64,000 bases of DNA, from positions 1 to 64,000 of the forward strand of contig NZ_AWFA01000034.1 of assembly GCF_000682675.1 (NCBI RefSeq), read 5' to 3'. Below, in pieces: positions 2,441 through 64,000 of the stretch; positions within the stretch are counted from its first letter, which is position 1; every line of letters starts with the position of its first letter. This stretch comes from Hyphomonas pacifica. GTDB lineage: Bacteria > Pseudomonadota > Alphaproteobacteria > Caulobacterales > Hyphomonadaceae. A program made the translations under genes and the position numbers. Under the pieces are notes generated by a model. The model did no database searches. It was not told where the DNA came from and saw only the letters and a program-made list of their open reading frames with translations.

Positions 2441-2506
2441 GGGATAGTCCTCTTCTAGCGTCGAGAGAGTACCCTAGCGTAAATTGTTCGCACATGCAAT
2501 GATTTT

Positions 2507-2521
2507 TTGTGCACCGCACAA
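2507..2521. promoter_or_regulatory. Palindrome upstream of the phasin gene, PhaR-like operator candidate
   Basis: Perfect inverted repeat TTGTGC-ACC-GCACAA in the phasin/dacC divergent intergenic region. Its core TGC-N3-GCA resembles the CTGC-N3-GCAG element reported for PhaR repressors that control phasin genes in alphaproteobacteria. That it is bound by PhaR is an inference from position and similarity. Confidence 0.4.
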
Positions 2522-2670
2522 TAAATTCCGGTCATGTTTCCGCACTCTCCCTTGCCAGCAGATTACGGATTTGTGAGGCTGGGCCCTGCGTTAAGGTGTG
2601 GTCAACAGATTTGACAGATTCTAGATTAAGACCGGGGCGTCCGGGGTTAACTCATTTGGGAGGAAACACG

Positions 2671-3825
2671 ATGCGGCGAGCATTTTCACCAGTTCTGAAG
2701 GCTATGGCTTTAACGGTGATGCTCTTCATGTCCGGTCTGGCTGTCCAGACTGCGGCAGCCGAGAAATATGCTTCCATTGTGATTGATGCCGACACACATG
2801 AAGTACTGCACGCCCGCAATGCGGACGAGCCACGCTATCCGGCCTCTCTCACCAAGGTGATGACGCTCTACATGCTGTTCGACGCCCTGAAGGCCGGAGA
2901 CGTGACGCTGGACGAGCGCCTGACCGTCTCACGCCATGCGGCCAGTCAGCCGCCTTCCAATCTGAAACTGCGCACCGGCTCCACGATCACCGTCCGCGAT
3001 GCCATCGGCGCGCTGGTCAACAAGTCTGCCAATGATGTCGCCGCCGTTGTGGGCGAGCGTCTGGGCGGCACGGAAAGCCGGTTCGCACAGCTGATGACGG
3101 TGAAGGCCGAATCCCTGGGTATGCAGAATACACGGTTCATGAATGCTTCCGGTCTGCCCGATACGCGCCAGCTGACGACCGCACGCGACCTGGCCATCCT
3201 GGCCGAGGCAATGCTGGAAAATCACGCTGACTATTACCACTATTTCTCCCAGCGCAGCTTCACCTGGGGCGGGCGCGACTACAAGAACCACAATGACCTG
3301 CTGGGCAAGGTCGACGGTGTGGACGGCATCAAGACCGGCTATACCCGCGCCTCCGGCTTCAATCTGATGGCCTCCGCCAAGCGCGACAATCGCCGCGTCA
3401 TCGCCATCATGCTGGGCGGCAACACATCCAAATCCCGCAACACCCATGTCGAGGATCTGGTCGAGGCCGCCTTTGAAACACTGAACGATCCGGCTGAGCA
3501 GCATGATCTGGTCTTTGCCAAGGTTGCCCTGCCGATCCACCCGAATGGTGCGGCCGAACCGATGCTGAACGGCAAGCCGCTGCGCGTGATCATTGCCGAA
3601 GGCGGCAGTGATGATGAGGCACCAGCCGAAACGCTGGTTACGGCGCAGGCTGTTGCCGCTGACAAAGCGGCAGCGCAGGAAGAGGCCGCCATTGTCGCCC
3701 GGGCTGAGCCGGAAATTGTCGAGCAGACCAAGATGGAAACCACCATCAATGTCGCTGAGCAACCAAAGACCCAAATGATGAGCGTGTCAGAATATGAAGC
3801 GCGCCAGATGGGCATCGTTCGATAA
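2671..3825 (+). CDS. D-alanyl-D-alanine carboxypeptidase (PBP5/6-type, S11 family)
   Basis: A periplasmic penicillin-binding protein that trims the terminal D-Ala of peptidoglycan pentapeptides. It has 384 residues with an N-terminal Sec signal (hydrophobic ALTVMLFMSGLAV, predicted cleavage after AAA near residue 30). All three catalytic motifs are present: SLTK at 59-62 (nucleophile Ser59), SAN at 119-121, and KTG at 221-223 inside DGIKTGYT. After the catalytic domain comes an Ala/Glu-rich tail of about 90 residues with no recognisable PBP5 C-terminal beta domain and no clear amphipathic anchor. I chose this ATG because GGGAGGAAACACG precedes it; the frame stays open further upstream but lacks a signal peptide there. 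kdsD lies 97 nt downstream and could be co-transcribed. Confidence 0.93.
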   Translation: MRRAFSPVLKAMALTVMLFMSGLAVQTAAAEKYASIVIDADTHEVLHARNADEPRYPASLTKVMTLYMLFDALKAGDVTLDERLTVSRHAASQPPSNLKLRTGSTITVRDAIGALVNKSANDVAAVVGERLGGTESRFAQLMTVKAESLGMQNTRFMNASGLPDTRQLTTARDLAILAEAMLENHADYYHYFSQRSFTWGGRDYKNHNDLLGKVDGVDGIKTGYTRASGFNLMASAKRDNRRVIAIMLGGNTSKSRNTHVEDLVEAAFETLNDPAEQHDLVFAKVALPIHPNGAAEPMLNGKPLRVIIAEGGSDDEAPAETLVTAQAVAADKAAAQEEAAIVARAEPEIVEQTKMETTINVAEQPKTQMMSVSEYEARQMGIVR

Positions 3826-60943: not shown

Positions 60944-62038
60944 ATGTCGCATAACACATTCGGTCATCTCTTCCGCGTCACCACTTGGGGTGAAAGTCAT
61001 GGGCCCGCGCTCGGCTGTGTTGTCGATGGCTGCCCCCCCGGCTTGCCTCTCGACGCAGCCTTCATCCAGCAATTCCTGGATAAGCGCCGCCCCGGCACAT
61101 CCCGCTTCGTCACACAGAGGCAGGAACCCGATCAGGTGAAGATTCTATCCGGTGTGTTCGAGGATGACCGCACGGATGGCCCAGTCACTACCGGCACACC
61201 CATCTCGCTTCTGATTGAAAACACTGATCAGCGCTCGAAAGATTACCGCGAAATCCGCGACCGGTATCGCCCCGGCCATGCCGACTACACCTATGATCAG
61301 AAATATGGTGTCCGCGACTATCGCGGCGGCGGGCGTTCCTCTGCGCGGGAAACGGCTGCGCGGGTAGCGGCTGGCGCTGTAGCGCGCCAGGTTCTTGGTA
61401 AAAACATCCAGATTCGCGGCGCCGTGGTTCAGATCGGCCCGCACGCTGTTGACCGCGCACGTCTTGACTGGAGCACAACGGAATCAAACCCATTCTGGTG
61501 CCCAGACCCGGACATGGTGCGCGTCTGGGAAGAGTTTCTCGACACGACGCGCAAGGCTGGAAGCTCTATCGGCGCCATTGTCGAGATCCAGGCGAGCGGC
61601 CTTCCGGCAGGCTGGGGTGCGCCCATCTACGGAAAGCTGGATTCGGAACTTGCCGGTGCCATGATGGGAATCAATGCTGCCAAAGGCGTTGAAATCGGCG
61701 CAGGCTTTGCCGTCGCCGCCATGTCTGGCGAGGAGAATGCAGACCGGATGCGGATGGGCGAAGATGGCAACCCCGTCTTTGGTGCCAACAATAATGGCGG
61801 TGTTGCCGGCGGTCTTTCGACCGGCCAGCCGCTGGTCGTGCGAGTGGCCATCAAGCCGACTTCTTCAATTTTGACACCAGTCGAGAGCATCAACCGAAAT
61901 GGCGAGGAAGTGGACGTGCGCACGATTGGGCGGCATGATCCATGTGTGGGCATTCGCGCGGTGCCTGTGGCGGAAGCCATGATGGCTTGCGTGCTGGCAG
62001 ATGCGAAGCTGAGGCACAGGGGGCAAACCGGTCGATGA
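60944..62038 (+). CDS. aroC: Chorismate synthase
   Basis: Last step of the shikimate pathway, needing reduced FMN. It has 364 residues. [60 protein letters not shown], and [20 protein letters not shown] are the signature blocks with the conserved His and Arg residues; [20 protein letters not shown] closes the domain. GAAGG lies 7 nt upstream of the ATG. An imperfect hairpin (CCGAACC...GGTTCGG) follows between aroC and the next gene, with no T-run. Confidence 0.96.
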
Positions 62039-62131
62039 GCAAGACTGTGGGTGTCACAGTATCTTCACATACCTGCTATCGGCAACTCAGACCGAACCTG
62101 CTAACGGGGTTCGGAATTGAAGGAATAGCGG

Positions 62132-63196
62132 GTGACTGGCATGGGTGGCGTTGAGATTTTCGGGGTCATAGGCTTCGCACTGGCGTCTTACGCCGTGGTC
62201 GCAAATGACTCGATCCAGACCCTCGGGACATTTCTATCATCAAACTCCAAGCGCCCCTGGTGGATGCTCTGGCTGTTTGCCAGCGCTATTCTGCTGGTCG
62301 TTGTCTTCTATGGTTACTTCCACGGTCAGGGCGATGTCGCCTATGACCGCCTGGACAAGCTGTCCATCCTTCCCGGAGAGGGTGACCGCAGCGGCCTGTT
62401 GATGCCGAATATCCAGTGGTGGCATGCCCTGCCCCCTCTGGTCCTGTTGATGCTTACGCGCTTCGGCATCCCGGTTTCCACCACCTTCCTCGTGCTGACC
62501 CTGTTTGCCCTGTCCGGTGGCTCATCTAGTGACGGCATTCTGGAAAAGATGATCATCAAGTCCGCCATGGGCTATGTGGTTGCCTTTGGCTGCGGCATTG
62601 CACTGTGGGTCATCATCTCCCGCACGTTCGAACGTTGGGTCTATCATACGCGGGACGAGATGCCCTGGCCTTACTGGGTGACCTTCCAGTGGCTGACGAC
62701 AACCTTCCTCTGGTCGCAATGGCTGATGCAGGATCTGGCAAACATCTTCGTTTACCTGCCGCGCGAAGTCACCATTGTTAACGGTGAGACGCATGTCAGT
62801 TTTGCATTCGGCTATGTCATCTTCGGCGCCCTCCTGCTGATTGCTATTCAGGCGTATATCTTCGCCACGAAAGGCGGTCAGATTCAGCGGATCGTTGAAC
62901 GCAAGATCAACACCGTGGACGTGCGTGCCGCCACGATCGTAGACCTGATCTACGGGATCATTCTTTTTATCTTCAAGGAAGTCAGCAATGTGCCCATGAG
63001 CACGACGTGGGTATTCCTGGGCCTGCTGGCTGGCCGCGAACTAGCGATTTCCTATGTAGCGCACCTGCGCGAAAAGAATGAGGCCGTGAAAGACGTTCTC
63101 GGCGATGCCGGACGTGCCTTCCTCGGCCTCATTATTTCGATAATCCTAGCTTTTGCCATGCCGCTGCTCGGCACGGGGAAACTACCCAGTTTCTAG
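62132..63196 (+). CDS. PiT-like membrane protein (inorganic phosphate transporter superfamily), divergent
   Basis: A 354-residue membrane protein with about nine TM segments in two similar halves. Near the N-terminus YAVVANDSIQTLGTFLSS and later RFGIPVSTTFLVLTLFALSG resemble the PiT (PHO4) halves, AND-x-x-x-x-G and VPVSTT. The second half repeats the pattern less exactly: SNVPMSTTWVFLGLLAGREL. The canonical GANDVANAFG is degraded (ANDSIQTLGT). It may transport phosphate or another solute, or have lost function. It starts with GTG behind AAGGA. A Pho box lies about 210 nt beyond its stop, upstream of the convergent small gene. Confidence 0.7.
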   Translation: MTGMGGVEIFGVIGFALASYAVVANDSIQTLGTFLSSNSKRPWWMLWLFASAILLVVVFYGYFHGQGDVAYDRLDKLSILPGEGDRSGLLMPNIQWWHALPPLVLLMLTRFGIPVSTTFLVLTLFALSGGSSSDGILEKMIIKSAMGYVVAFGCGIALWVIISRTFERWVYHTRDEMPWPYWVTFQWLTTTFLWSQWLMQDLANIFVYLPREVTIVNGETHVSFAFGYVIFGALLLIAIQAYIFATKGGQIQRIVERKINTVDVRAATIVDLIYGIILFIFKEVSNVPMSTTWVFLGLLAGRELAISYVAHLREKNEAVKDVLGDAGRAFLGLIISIILAFAMPLLGTGKLPSF

Positions 63197-63207
63197 ACTT
63201 ACGCGGC

Positions 63208-63378
63208 TTATGCGAAAATATTGACGATCGGGTCGAGCGCGATTGAAAGGCTCACACCGACAACGCCAGCCAAAACCAACATTGTTCCCCTCAACACACT
63301 GAGGACGGCGTCATTGTTCGCCAGATCCCTGTGCGCCAGCCAGGAAACATGATTATCATTGTGATCTAGGACAGCCAT
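63208..63378 (-). CDS. 56-residue single-TM membrane peptide behind a Pho box
   Basis: A short peptide starting at an ATG preceded by a near-perfect AGGAGG with five to six bases of spacing. About 29 residues of polar N-terminus (MAVLDHNDNHVSWLAHRDLA) precede one hydrophobic helix (RGTMLVLAGVVGVSLSIALD) and a short tail. I do not recognise a family. The frame is open 26 codons further upstream through the promoter region, where the extra part has no domain. It lies just downstream of four 11-bp Pho-box repeats, so I infer induction by phosphate starvation. It converges with the PiT-like gene 11 nt away. Confidence 0.65.
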   Translation of the reverse strand: MAVLDHNDNHVSWLAHRDLANNDAVLSVLRGTMLVLAGVVGVSLSIALDPIVNIFA

Positions 63379-63408
63379 GATAGCCTCCTTCCTTTCCTGG
63401 TGAAAATT

Positions 63409-63452
63409 ACTGTCATACGACTGTAATCTAACTGTCATATTACTGTCATGTT
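63409..63452. promoter_or_regulatory. Pho box: four 11-bp direct repeats
   Basis: ACTGTCAT or ACTGTAAT recurs with exactly 11-bp period at 63409, 63420, 63431 and 63442; three copies are identical. This is the geometry of a PhoB binding site (CTGTCAT repeats). It ends about 20 bases upstream of the small gene's Shine-Dalgarno. The repeats read CTGTCAT on the plus strand, opposite to that gene; plus-strand transcription would enter a gene-free stretch of about 90 nt before the end of the convergent methyltransferase gene. Confidence 0.85.
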
Positions 63453-63538
63453 CCACGCTTGCAAATCAATTTTTTTTCATCGGGGATTAACCCTAATGGC
63501 CAGGGCCACACAAATCTCTGAAAAATAAGGATTTATAC

Positions 63539-64000
63539 CTATTTTCGGAAGGTGCTGACTTTTGTCAGAAATGCCAGCGCCTGTCTTTCAGGCAGAAGCA
63601 TTGCAGATTCGCACGCCTTTGCGGCGTCCCAGGAGAGGTATTCCGCATAGTACGGCTCATGGAAGCCGTGCGGGAAATATTCCAGCAACCCATCCATATC
63701 CGGATAATCGCCAAACTGGACACTATCAGCCAGAATGAATAGTCCGCCGGGCTTCAGAATGCGCGCCACTTCCGCCAGAATCTTCGGTCGCACATCCACC
63801 GGCAATTCGTGAAACAGGAAGATCGAGACAACCATGTCGAGGCTATCGTCCTTCAAAGGCATCGCCTCTGCAGCCTCATGCAGGATATTCACATGCGGCC
63901 AGCGGTTAAGCCGCTCCCGCGCCGCCTCGGTATAGCTCGGCGACAAGTCTAGACCCGACGCCCTGAGACGCGGATAGACCTGCATGACCTGCGACAGGAA
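63539..64000 (-). CDS. Class I SAM-dependent methyltransferase (partial, C-terminal part)
   Basis: The visible 154 residues run off the right edge, so the N-terminal GxGxG SAM-binding loop is outside. ASGLDLSPSYTEAARERLNR is motif post-I with the acidic residue that binds the SAM ribose; EAAEAMPLKDDSLDMVVSIF, then LFHELPVDVRPKILAEVARI and LKPGGLFILADSVQ follow the usual methyltransferase order. The C-terminal third (GFHEPYYAEYLSWDAAKACE) is a substrate-specific segment. Substrate unknown. Confidence 0.9.
   Translation of the reverse strand, partial: FLSQVMQVYPRLRASGLDLSPSYTEAARERLNRWPHVNILHEAAEAMPLKDDSLDMVVSIFLFHELPVDVRPKILAEVARILKPGGLFILADSVQFGDYPDMDGLLEYFPHGFHEPYYAEYLSWDAAKACESAMLLPERQALAFLTKVSTFRK

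Follow-up and report, generated by a model that had tools for sequence, protein, structure and literature searches.

A reversed Pho-type array over the predicted promoter of a small membrane protein gene convergent with a PiT-fold transporter gene in Hyphomonas pacifica

Near one end of a contig of Hyphomonas pacifica (assembly GCF_000682675.1, contig NZ_AWFA01000034.1), four Pho-box-like repeats stand in front of a small gene that converges on the gene of a PiT-like membrane protein, and the repeats face away from the small gene. The locus thus raises the questions of which regulator reads the repeats, which transcript is controlled and in which sense, and what the small protein may have to do with the transporter. 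The window referred to below is the whole stretch of DNA analysed, 64,000 nucleotides in length (positions 1 to 64,000 of the contig).

The small membrane protein gene and its transporter neighbour

Judged by its conservation, the 56-residue frame on the minus strand (63208–63378; ATG at 63378, coding positions 63211–63378, stop codon ending at 63208) is a true gene. Profile searches of 105 genomes of the family gave convincing copies in 12, all within the genus (42 genomes) and with one credible copy each; at the threshold of E 0.05 the search returned 21 of the 105 genomes, and the nine besides these 12 were dropped, together with a second row in genome G037, as matches with E values of 0.01–0.035 lying inside frames of 150–890 amino acids. 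The median dN/dS is 0.11 (28 pairs from eight close genomes), and residues M1, L4, D5, A37, G38, G41, I46, A47, D49, N53, F55 and A56 are common to the 11 peptide sequences compared (11 of the 12, one of two identical ones being omitted). The structure model is a single helix covering residues 2–55, with a mean pLDDT of 79.9. The single-transmembrane peptide proposed in the preliminary description is thereby borne out as a conserved single-helix gene, as is its near-consensus Shine-Dalgarno sequence, which reads AAGGAGG at 63390–63384 on the minus strand; its standing as an orphan also holds, since the comparison with small-protein families in Pfam and NCBIfam gave none up to an E value of 1. 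An 82-residue version with a GTG start, in which the peptide frame runs through the repeats, was rejected because some relatives carry a stop codon in the extension, with open frames of 60, 64 and 75 amino acids.

Some features of the predicted messenger can be noted separately. Third positions in codons 1–18 (window 63325–63378) are unusually invariant, with 9 of 15 there and 3 of 20 in the remaining codons (Fisher p 0.011), and a CCAGGAA in the leader, which can pair with TTCCTGG in codons 11–14, is present in the eight close genomes; translation control is a possible reading of the two observations. Structure in the leader RNA was rejected, as the 11 sequences fold no better than their shuffles (z from −0.6 to +1.0). 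Terminator-like sites were sought on the minus strand in 62000–64000, the 11 nucleotides at 63197–63207 included, and none was found, so that the peptide transcript may run antisense into the transporter gene.

The transporter gene lies on the plus strand at 62132–63196 (354 amino acids, start probably the ATG at 62141), and its frame ends 11 nt from the stop codon of the convergent peptide gene, in agreement with the earlier claim of a convergent PiT-like gene at that distance. According to its predicted model (pLDDT 75.9), the protein has a PiT fold: the comparison with 6l85, a sodium-dependent phosphate transporter, gives Z 22.3 and an rmsd of 3.9 over 312 aligned residues, with the next structure at Z 6.5, and Foldseek returns a probability of 1.00, E 1.2e-3 and a TM score of 0.55. 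The Pfam PHO4 cut-off is not reached by the window protein (11.6 bits against 33.7), although 12 of 30 relatives match the family at E 0.1 or better, the best at 1.8e-5. A sequence search against solved structures gave 0 matches up to E 1, and for this reason the PiT identity comes down to the fold comparison and the weak Pfam matches only. The closest named relatives belong to Hyphomonas, among them H. beringensis with 96% identity. PiT-like relatives bearing the motifs NDSIQTLGTF and QDLANIF (L066–L107) occur in Microcystis, Gastranaerophilales, Verrucomicrobiota, Flavobacteriaceae and Algoriphagus records, and since the window protein falls under the PHO4 cut-off, this PiT-like branch may go unannotated.

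The peptide and the transporter are tightly linked. The transporter is found in 17 of the 42 genomes of the genus, all 12 peptide genomes are among these 17, and by their coordinates the two genes are convergent neighbours in 12/12, which answers the earlier question of their co-occurrence in the affirmative. In four other loci (L034, L037, L038 and L054) the end of the transporter gene aligns straight into the class I methyltransferase gene that is the further neighbour in the window (63539–64000, minus strand, running on to L011:4606) and counts as mere context, and the peptide and the repeats are both missing, as the frames of L034 and L037 also show. In the transporter tree (16 genus rows and six others, with G033 left out) one gain or one loss suffices, with support 79/83, so that the linkage alone could be plain inheritance.

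The repeat array and the Pho boxes of the genus

The array occupies 63409–63449 and is written on the plus strand, reversed with respect to the peptide gene, as ACTGTCAT (63409–63416), ACTGTAAT (63420–63427), ACTGTCAT (63431–63438) and ACTGTCAT (63442–63449), in exact 11-bp steps and with a single change in one unit. It has the form of a Pho box, that is, of CTGTCAT-type direct repeats with a period of 11. The analysis takes the hexamers of sigma-70 promoters, the Pho-box consensus of E. coli and the signature of PiT proteins as background. When the 42 genomes of the genus were searched with a three-unit pattern (TGTMAY-N5-TGTMAY-N5-TGTMAY, one mismatch allowed), 53 matches were obtained in 26 genomes, against 0 in all 42 for the same pattern written backwards as a control, and in the window's own genome the pattern matches the array (two overlapping matches) and one other place, C41:10764. 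Invariant columns among the eight close genomes number 33 of 43 in the array stretch, as against 15 of 29 in the remaining leader and 14 of 62 in the spacer on the far side of the promoter.

A yardstick for the regulator came from the genus's pstC genes, 30 loci being taken from 40 matches. In 30/30 a box such as TGTCAC-ATAAC-TGTCGC lies 59–64 nt before pstC, on the gene's strand, with at least 10 of 12 positions, a level attained on the other strand in 4/30 loci and in 1.7% of letter shuffles; a TA follows the box at a gap of exactly 10 nt in 30/30, the only gap between 4 and 19 for which this holds. The pstS boxes are weaker, reaching 10/12 in 13 of 30 loci (2 of 30 on the other strand; the set includes one truncated locus, L129), and the matrix was therefore built from pstC, with 15 distinct boxes. 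Among the 127,964 positions scanned on both strands of the window, the array takes rank 1 (63432, 19.5 bits) as well as ranks 3 and 5, and rank 2 (62051, 14.0 bits) falls before the transporter gene; when one strand was letter-shuffled 20 times, the maxima averaged 12.8 bits and the highest was 18.1. The strong PhoB-type site with an exact 11-bp period, as first described, is thus upheld, and the repeats persist in related genomes, 11 of 12 orthologous arrays scoring at least 11.9 with the pstC matrix, with the exception of G026 (4.8), which keeps the peptide–transporter pair and has a good site at neither gene. One unit has been lost in the deep branch (G035, G041 and G004). On these sequence comparisons PhoB is most likely the regulator, and its binding to the array is inferred.

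Orientation of the array and the sense of control

The core promoter predicted for the peptide gene, on the minus strand, comprises a −10 element TAATAT at 63437–63442, which overlaps two units of the array, and a −35 element TTGCAA at 63459–63464, with a spacer of 16; an A-rich stretch upstream of the −35 (63468–63478) is UP-like, the name being inferential, and in the stretch formed by the two upstream elements 16 of 23 columns are invariant among the eight close genomes. With spacings of 15–19 allowed in the search, a sigma-70-like promoter directed toward the peptide, TTGnnn-N16/17-TAnnnT, its −10 falling right on the first unit of the array, was found in 12/12 peptide genomes, two of which are identical in sequence here. 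Transcription would start at about 63430, and the array would then cover approximately −19 to +22, which is the position of an operator. PhoB either activates or represses depending on the position of its site, according to PMC10294691. In terms of these two classes, the array lies over the core promoter, as predicted, in the manner of repressing sites, and it does not have the arrangement of activating ones, with the box on the gene's strand and the −10 ten nucleotides behind it, as it is reversed.

In the preliminary description the peptide was proposed to be induced by PhoB at low phosphate, and the array does adjoin the peptide gene, just as the four loci without the peptide are also without the array. 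Induction is nevertheless improbable, given that the array is oriented opposite to the pstC boxes (30/30), that it sits over the −10 and the start in 12/12 genomes, and that on the peptide's strand the best pstC-matrix score is just 1.3–7.6. The observation that the array faces away from the gene, then counted as a weakness, was itself correct, and with this promoter geometry it reads as a sign of repression rather than as a flaw in a case for induction. A plus-strand RNA had also been suggested; activated from the array, it would be antisense to the 3′ end of the methyltransferase gene and would suit the orientation of the repeats; in 8 of 12 genomes TATTAC or TATTAG stands 10 nt behind units 1–2, where a weak plus-strand promoter is possible. 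Such an RNA is still less probable than induction. A TA at 10 nt, present at pstC in 30/30, is found in 0 of 12 genomes after the last unit, in 0 after the third, in 8 (all in the close group) after the second and in 1 after the first, conservation beyond the −35 is low (the 14 of 62 columns given above), Rfam gives no match up to E 1 in 62000–64000, and no plus-strand frame of at least 120 amino acids begins there before L011:4316. As the main reading it was rejected on the conservation, the Rfam result and the missing TA behind the last unit. Repression of the peptide gene by PhoB, taken alone, is the likely reading of the promoter geometry.

A similar arrangement recurs in the genus. The other three-unit array of the window's own genome (C41:10764) precedes the gene of a secreted protein with a CAP domain, a type also called SCP/PR1 (L245:1964–2791, array at 2764–2791; PF00188, on tests of L245 and L246). 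Of 19 rows of this gene, 18 have a reversed array with a promoter, TTGAC[AG]-N17/18-TAnnnT, ending at its first unit, and in one row the spacing is 15; the 19 rows are L245, L246, L248 and 16 loci among L218–L239, with genome G005 counted twice, and five similar array places (G012, G003, G037, G016 and G019) are left out of them. This geometry makes the CAP-domain gene a probable second case of repression by PhoB in the genus, although in several genomes another gene starts about 145–157 nt off on the other side of the array, which might serve that gene instead. In G007 the gene of a phosphate-selective porin has a forward Pho array in front of it, followed after 10 nt by TTTAAT (L247:2404–2431, porin 2504–3673; PF07396, tested for L247 only). 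The orientations met are, in summary, forward at pstC and the porin, and reversed over the promoters of the peptide and CAP genes. By look, a forward array also precedes a phosphate-selective porin in L240 (G018), and TGTCAY-N5-TGTCAT in activating orientation is seen at L014:5483–5500 and L013:4872–4889, upstream of genes of large proteins resembling TonB receptors, likewise named by look.

Possible control of the transporter and relation to known systems

The transporter gene has a Pho-type site on its own strand, TGTCAC-N5-CTTCAC at 62052–62068, which is the second-ranked site of the window. The site is half degenerate, its second unit containing TTCAC, and scores no higher than the chance maxima for 64 kb, so that its place and its conservation carry the weight: it is kept as [TC]GTCAC-N6-TTCA in 16/16 loci of the genus. 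Within 200 nt of the transporter gene the best site scores 8.2–14.0 in 11 of the 12 peptide genomes, the exception being G026, whose array is poor too, and 3.9–4.5 in 4/4 peptide-less ones; by way of comparison, among 640 one-strand segments of the window, each of 200 nt, a level of 7 bits is attained by 12 and one of 9 bits by five. These site counts omit G033, in which the transporter gene is divided between two contigs and has an internal stop in one of its pieces. In G035, G041 and G004 the top-scoring site lies a single step of 11 nt further upstream than the aligned one, with TGTCAC in common. TATCGG at 62077–62082, a possible −10 element of the transporter, is present in 12/12 peptide-bearing genomes and 0/4 peptide-less ones; as it begins 8 nt behind the site, and not 10, the site may act in either sense. 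Outside the genus, 13 loci gave two sites at 10/12, one on each strand and in no consistent place, and the transporter site thus looks genus-specific.

As both genes have Pho-type sites, they probably answer to a common signal, and opposite responses would be the simplest arrangement. On this view PhoB would use the array as an operator that covers the peptide's core promoter in reversed orientation. With ample phosphate PhoB would be unphosphorylated and the peptide promoter active, and the 56-residue single-helix protein would reside in the inner membrane, where it would bind and restrain the PiT-fold transporter; at low phosphate PhoB~P would fill the four units and exclude RNA polymerase, and the peptide would disappear. 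Repression by PhoB~P at low phosphate together with a peptide that probably restrains the transporter when phosphate is ample is, as a whole, a tentative account, judged slightly short of probable. Control of the transporter in the opposite sense is held with about the same reserve, and binding and inhibition of the transporter by the peptide, which is drawn from the linkage and the co-varying sites, with somewhat more. Rather doubtful, in turn, is the wider proposal that PhoB opens the transporter gene while removing its small-protein brake and that the reversed array is a distinct, recurring class of operator. The E. coli pitB gene is without PhoB control (PMC10294691), and PhoB control of PiT genes is therefore not general.

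Other readings concern either the regulator or the peptide. The array might be the operator of another OmpR-type protein, chiefly CenR, a rival to be taken seriously, as its sites (TGA-N8-TGA) have the same period of 11: the minus strand of the array reads TGA-N8-TGA, and in Rhodobacter the sites at which CenR represses cover the promoter, with reversed orientation in two out of three, and one CenR-activated target is an SCP/PR1-domain gene (PMC9275681). Compared with published sites, the flanking letters mostly differ, many of these sites being TGACGCA..GTGA or similar (PMC9275681) against TGACAGTnnn here; moreover, the genus's own pstC matrix fits the array better than any other place in the 64 kb, and the CAP arrays share the spacer ATAAC with the pstC boxes, so that CenR is, like induction, an improbable choice. 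Less remote, and still unlikely, is a structural or stabilising role of the peptide as a partner of the transporter, with PhoB control as proposed or with both genes in the same sense. The strict linkage and the small single-helix form of the protein would agree with this role, and some small proteins do stabilise transporters, as in the pairs MgtS–MgtA and MgtU–MgtB (PMC10710835). Against it, the peptide is dispensable, being missing from 5 of the 17 transporter genomes (one of them G033, with its split gene), and a reversed operator predicts its loss just when a Pho-regulated transporter is needed. That the peptide is a hydrophobic peptide of the type I toxin kind, under the control of an antisense RNA, is the least credible reading: its shortness, its one predicted helix and its convergent neighbour are compatible with a toxin, while it has a predicted promoter of its own with a PhoB-type operator, is linked to one transporter, is under purifying selection and occurs in the 12 genomes as a single credible copy each.

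With repression by PhoB as the preferred reading, the locus can be set against known systems. MgtS of E. coli is thought to inhibit PitA, a PiT-family symporter (PMC10710835), and it was the sole small-protein regulator of a PiT protein found in the papers searched. In the best reading, both cases pair a short membrane protein with a PiT-fold transporter, a likeness by description and not by sequence comparison, in which binding is, for the Hyphomonas peptide, a proposal; MgtS differs in having 31 amino acids and responding to a lack of magnesium, as against 56 amino acids, a convergent gene and a PhoB-type operator. The array shares its 11-bp direct repeats and the genus consensus with the PhoB operator at pstC, and differs from it in having four units, reversed, over the −10 and the start, whereas the pstC box replaces the −35. 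In S. meliloti the repression reportedly concerns the transporter locus itself, and in Hyphomonas the reversed site lies on a separate small gene. PhoB-mediated repression was proposed for the S. meliloti pit-like gene, likewise an alphaproteobacterial PiT gene under phosphate control (Bardin 1998, as cited in PMC3616915). DUF1127 small proteins act on PhoR (PMC12501420) and are also small alphaproteobacterial proteins in phosphate control; the peptide differs in its membrane helix, its other neighbour and the lack of a DUF1127 match in Pfam up to E 1. The CenR operators of Rhodobacter (PMC9275681) have OmpR-type 11-bp repeats as well, and their promoter-covering sites, some reversed, repress; the difference lies in the half-site letters.

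The literature on Hyphomonas and PhoB contained nothing on such a pair in its titles and abstract beginnings, and in a search on small membrane proteins and phosphate transport the nearest idea was that of DUF1127 and PhoR. What appears to be new is the pairing of a small protein with a transporter together with a PhoB operator whose predicted position is a repressing one. Regulation of Pit transporters is described as varying between species (PMC4415409). If the account is true, the locus would provide a second, unrelated pair of a small protein and a PiT transporter, in marine alphaproteobacteria and with a readable regulatory code, and the throttling of PiT transporters by dedicated small proteins would become a directly testable question. 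Beyond this pair, the reversed arrays suggest a sequence rule by which PhoB-repressed genes may be told from PhoB-activated ones in the genus.
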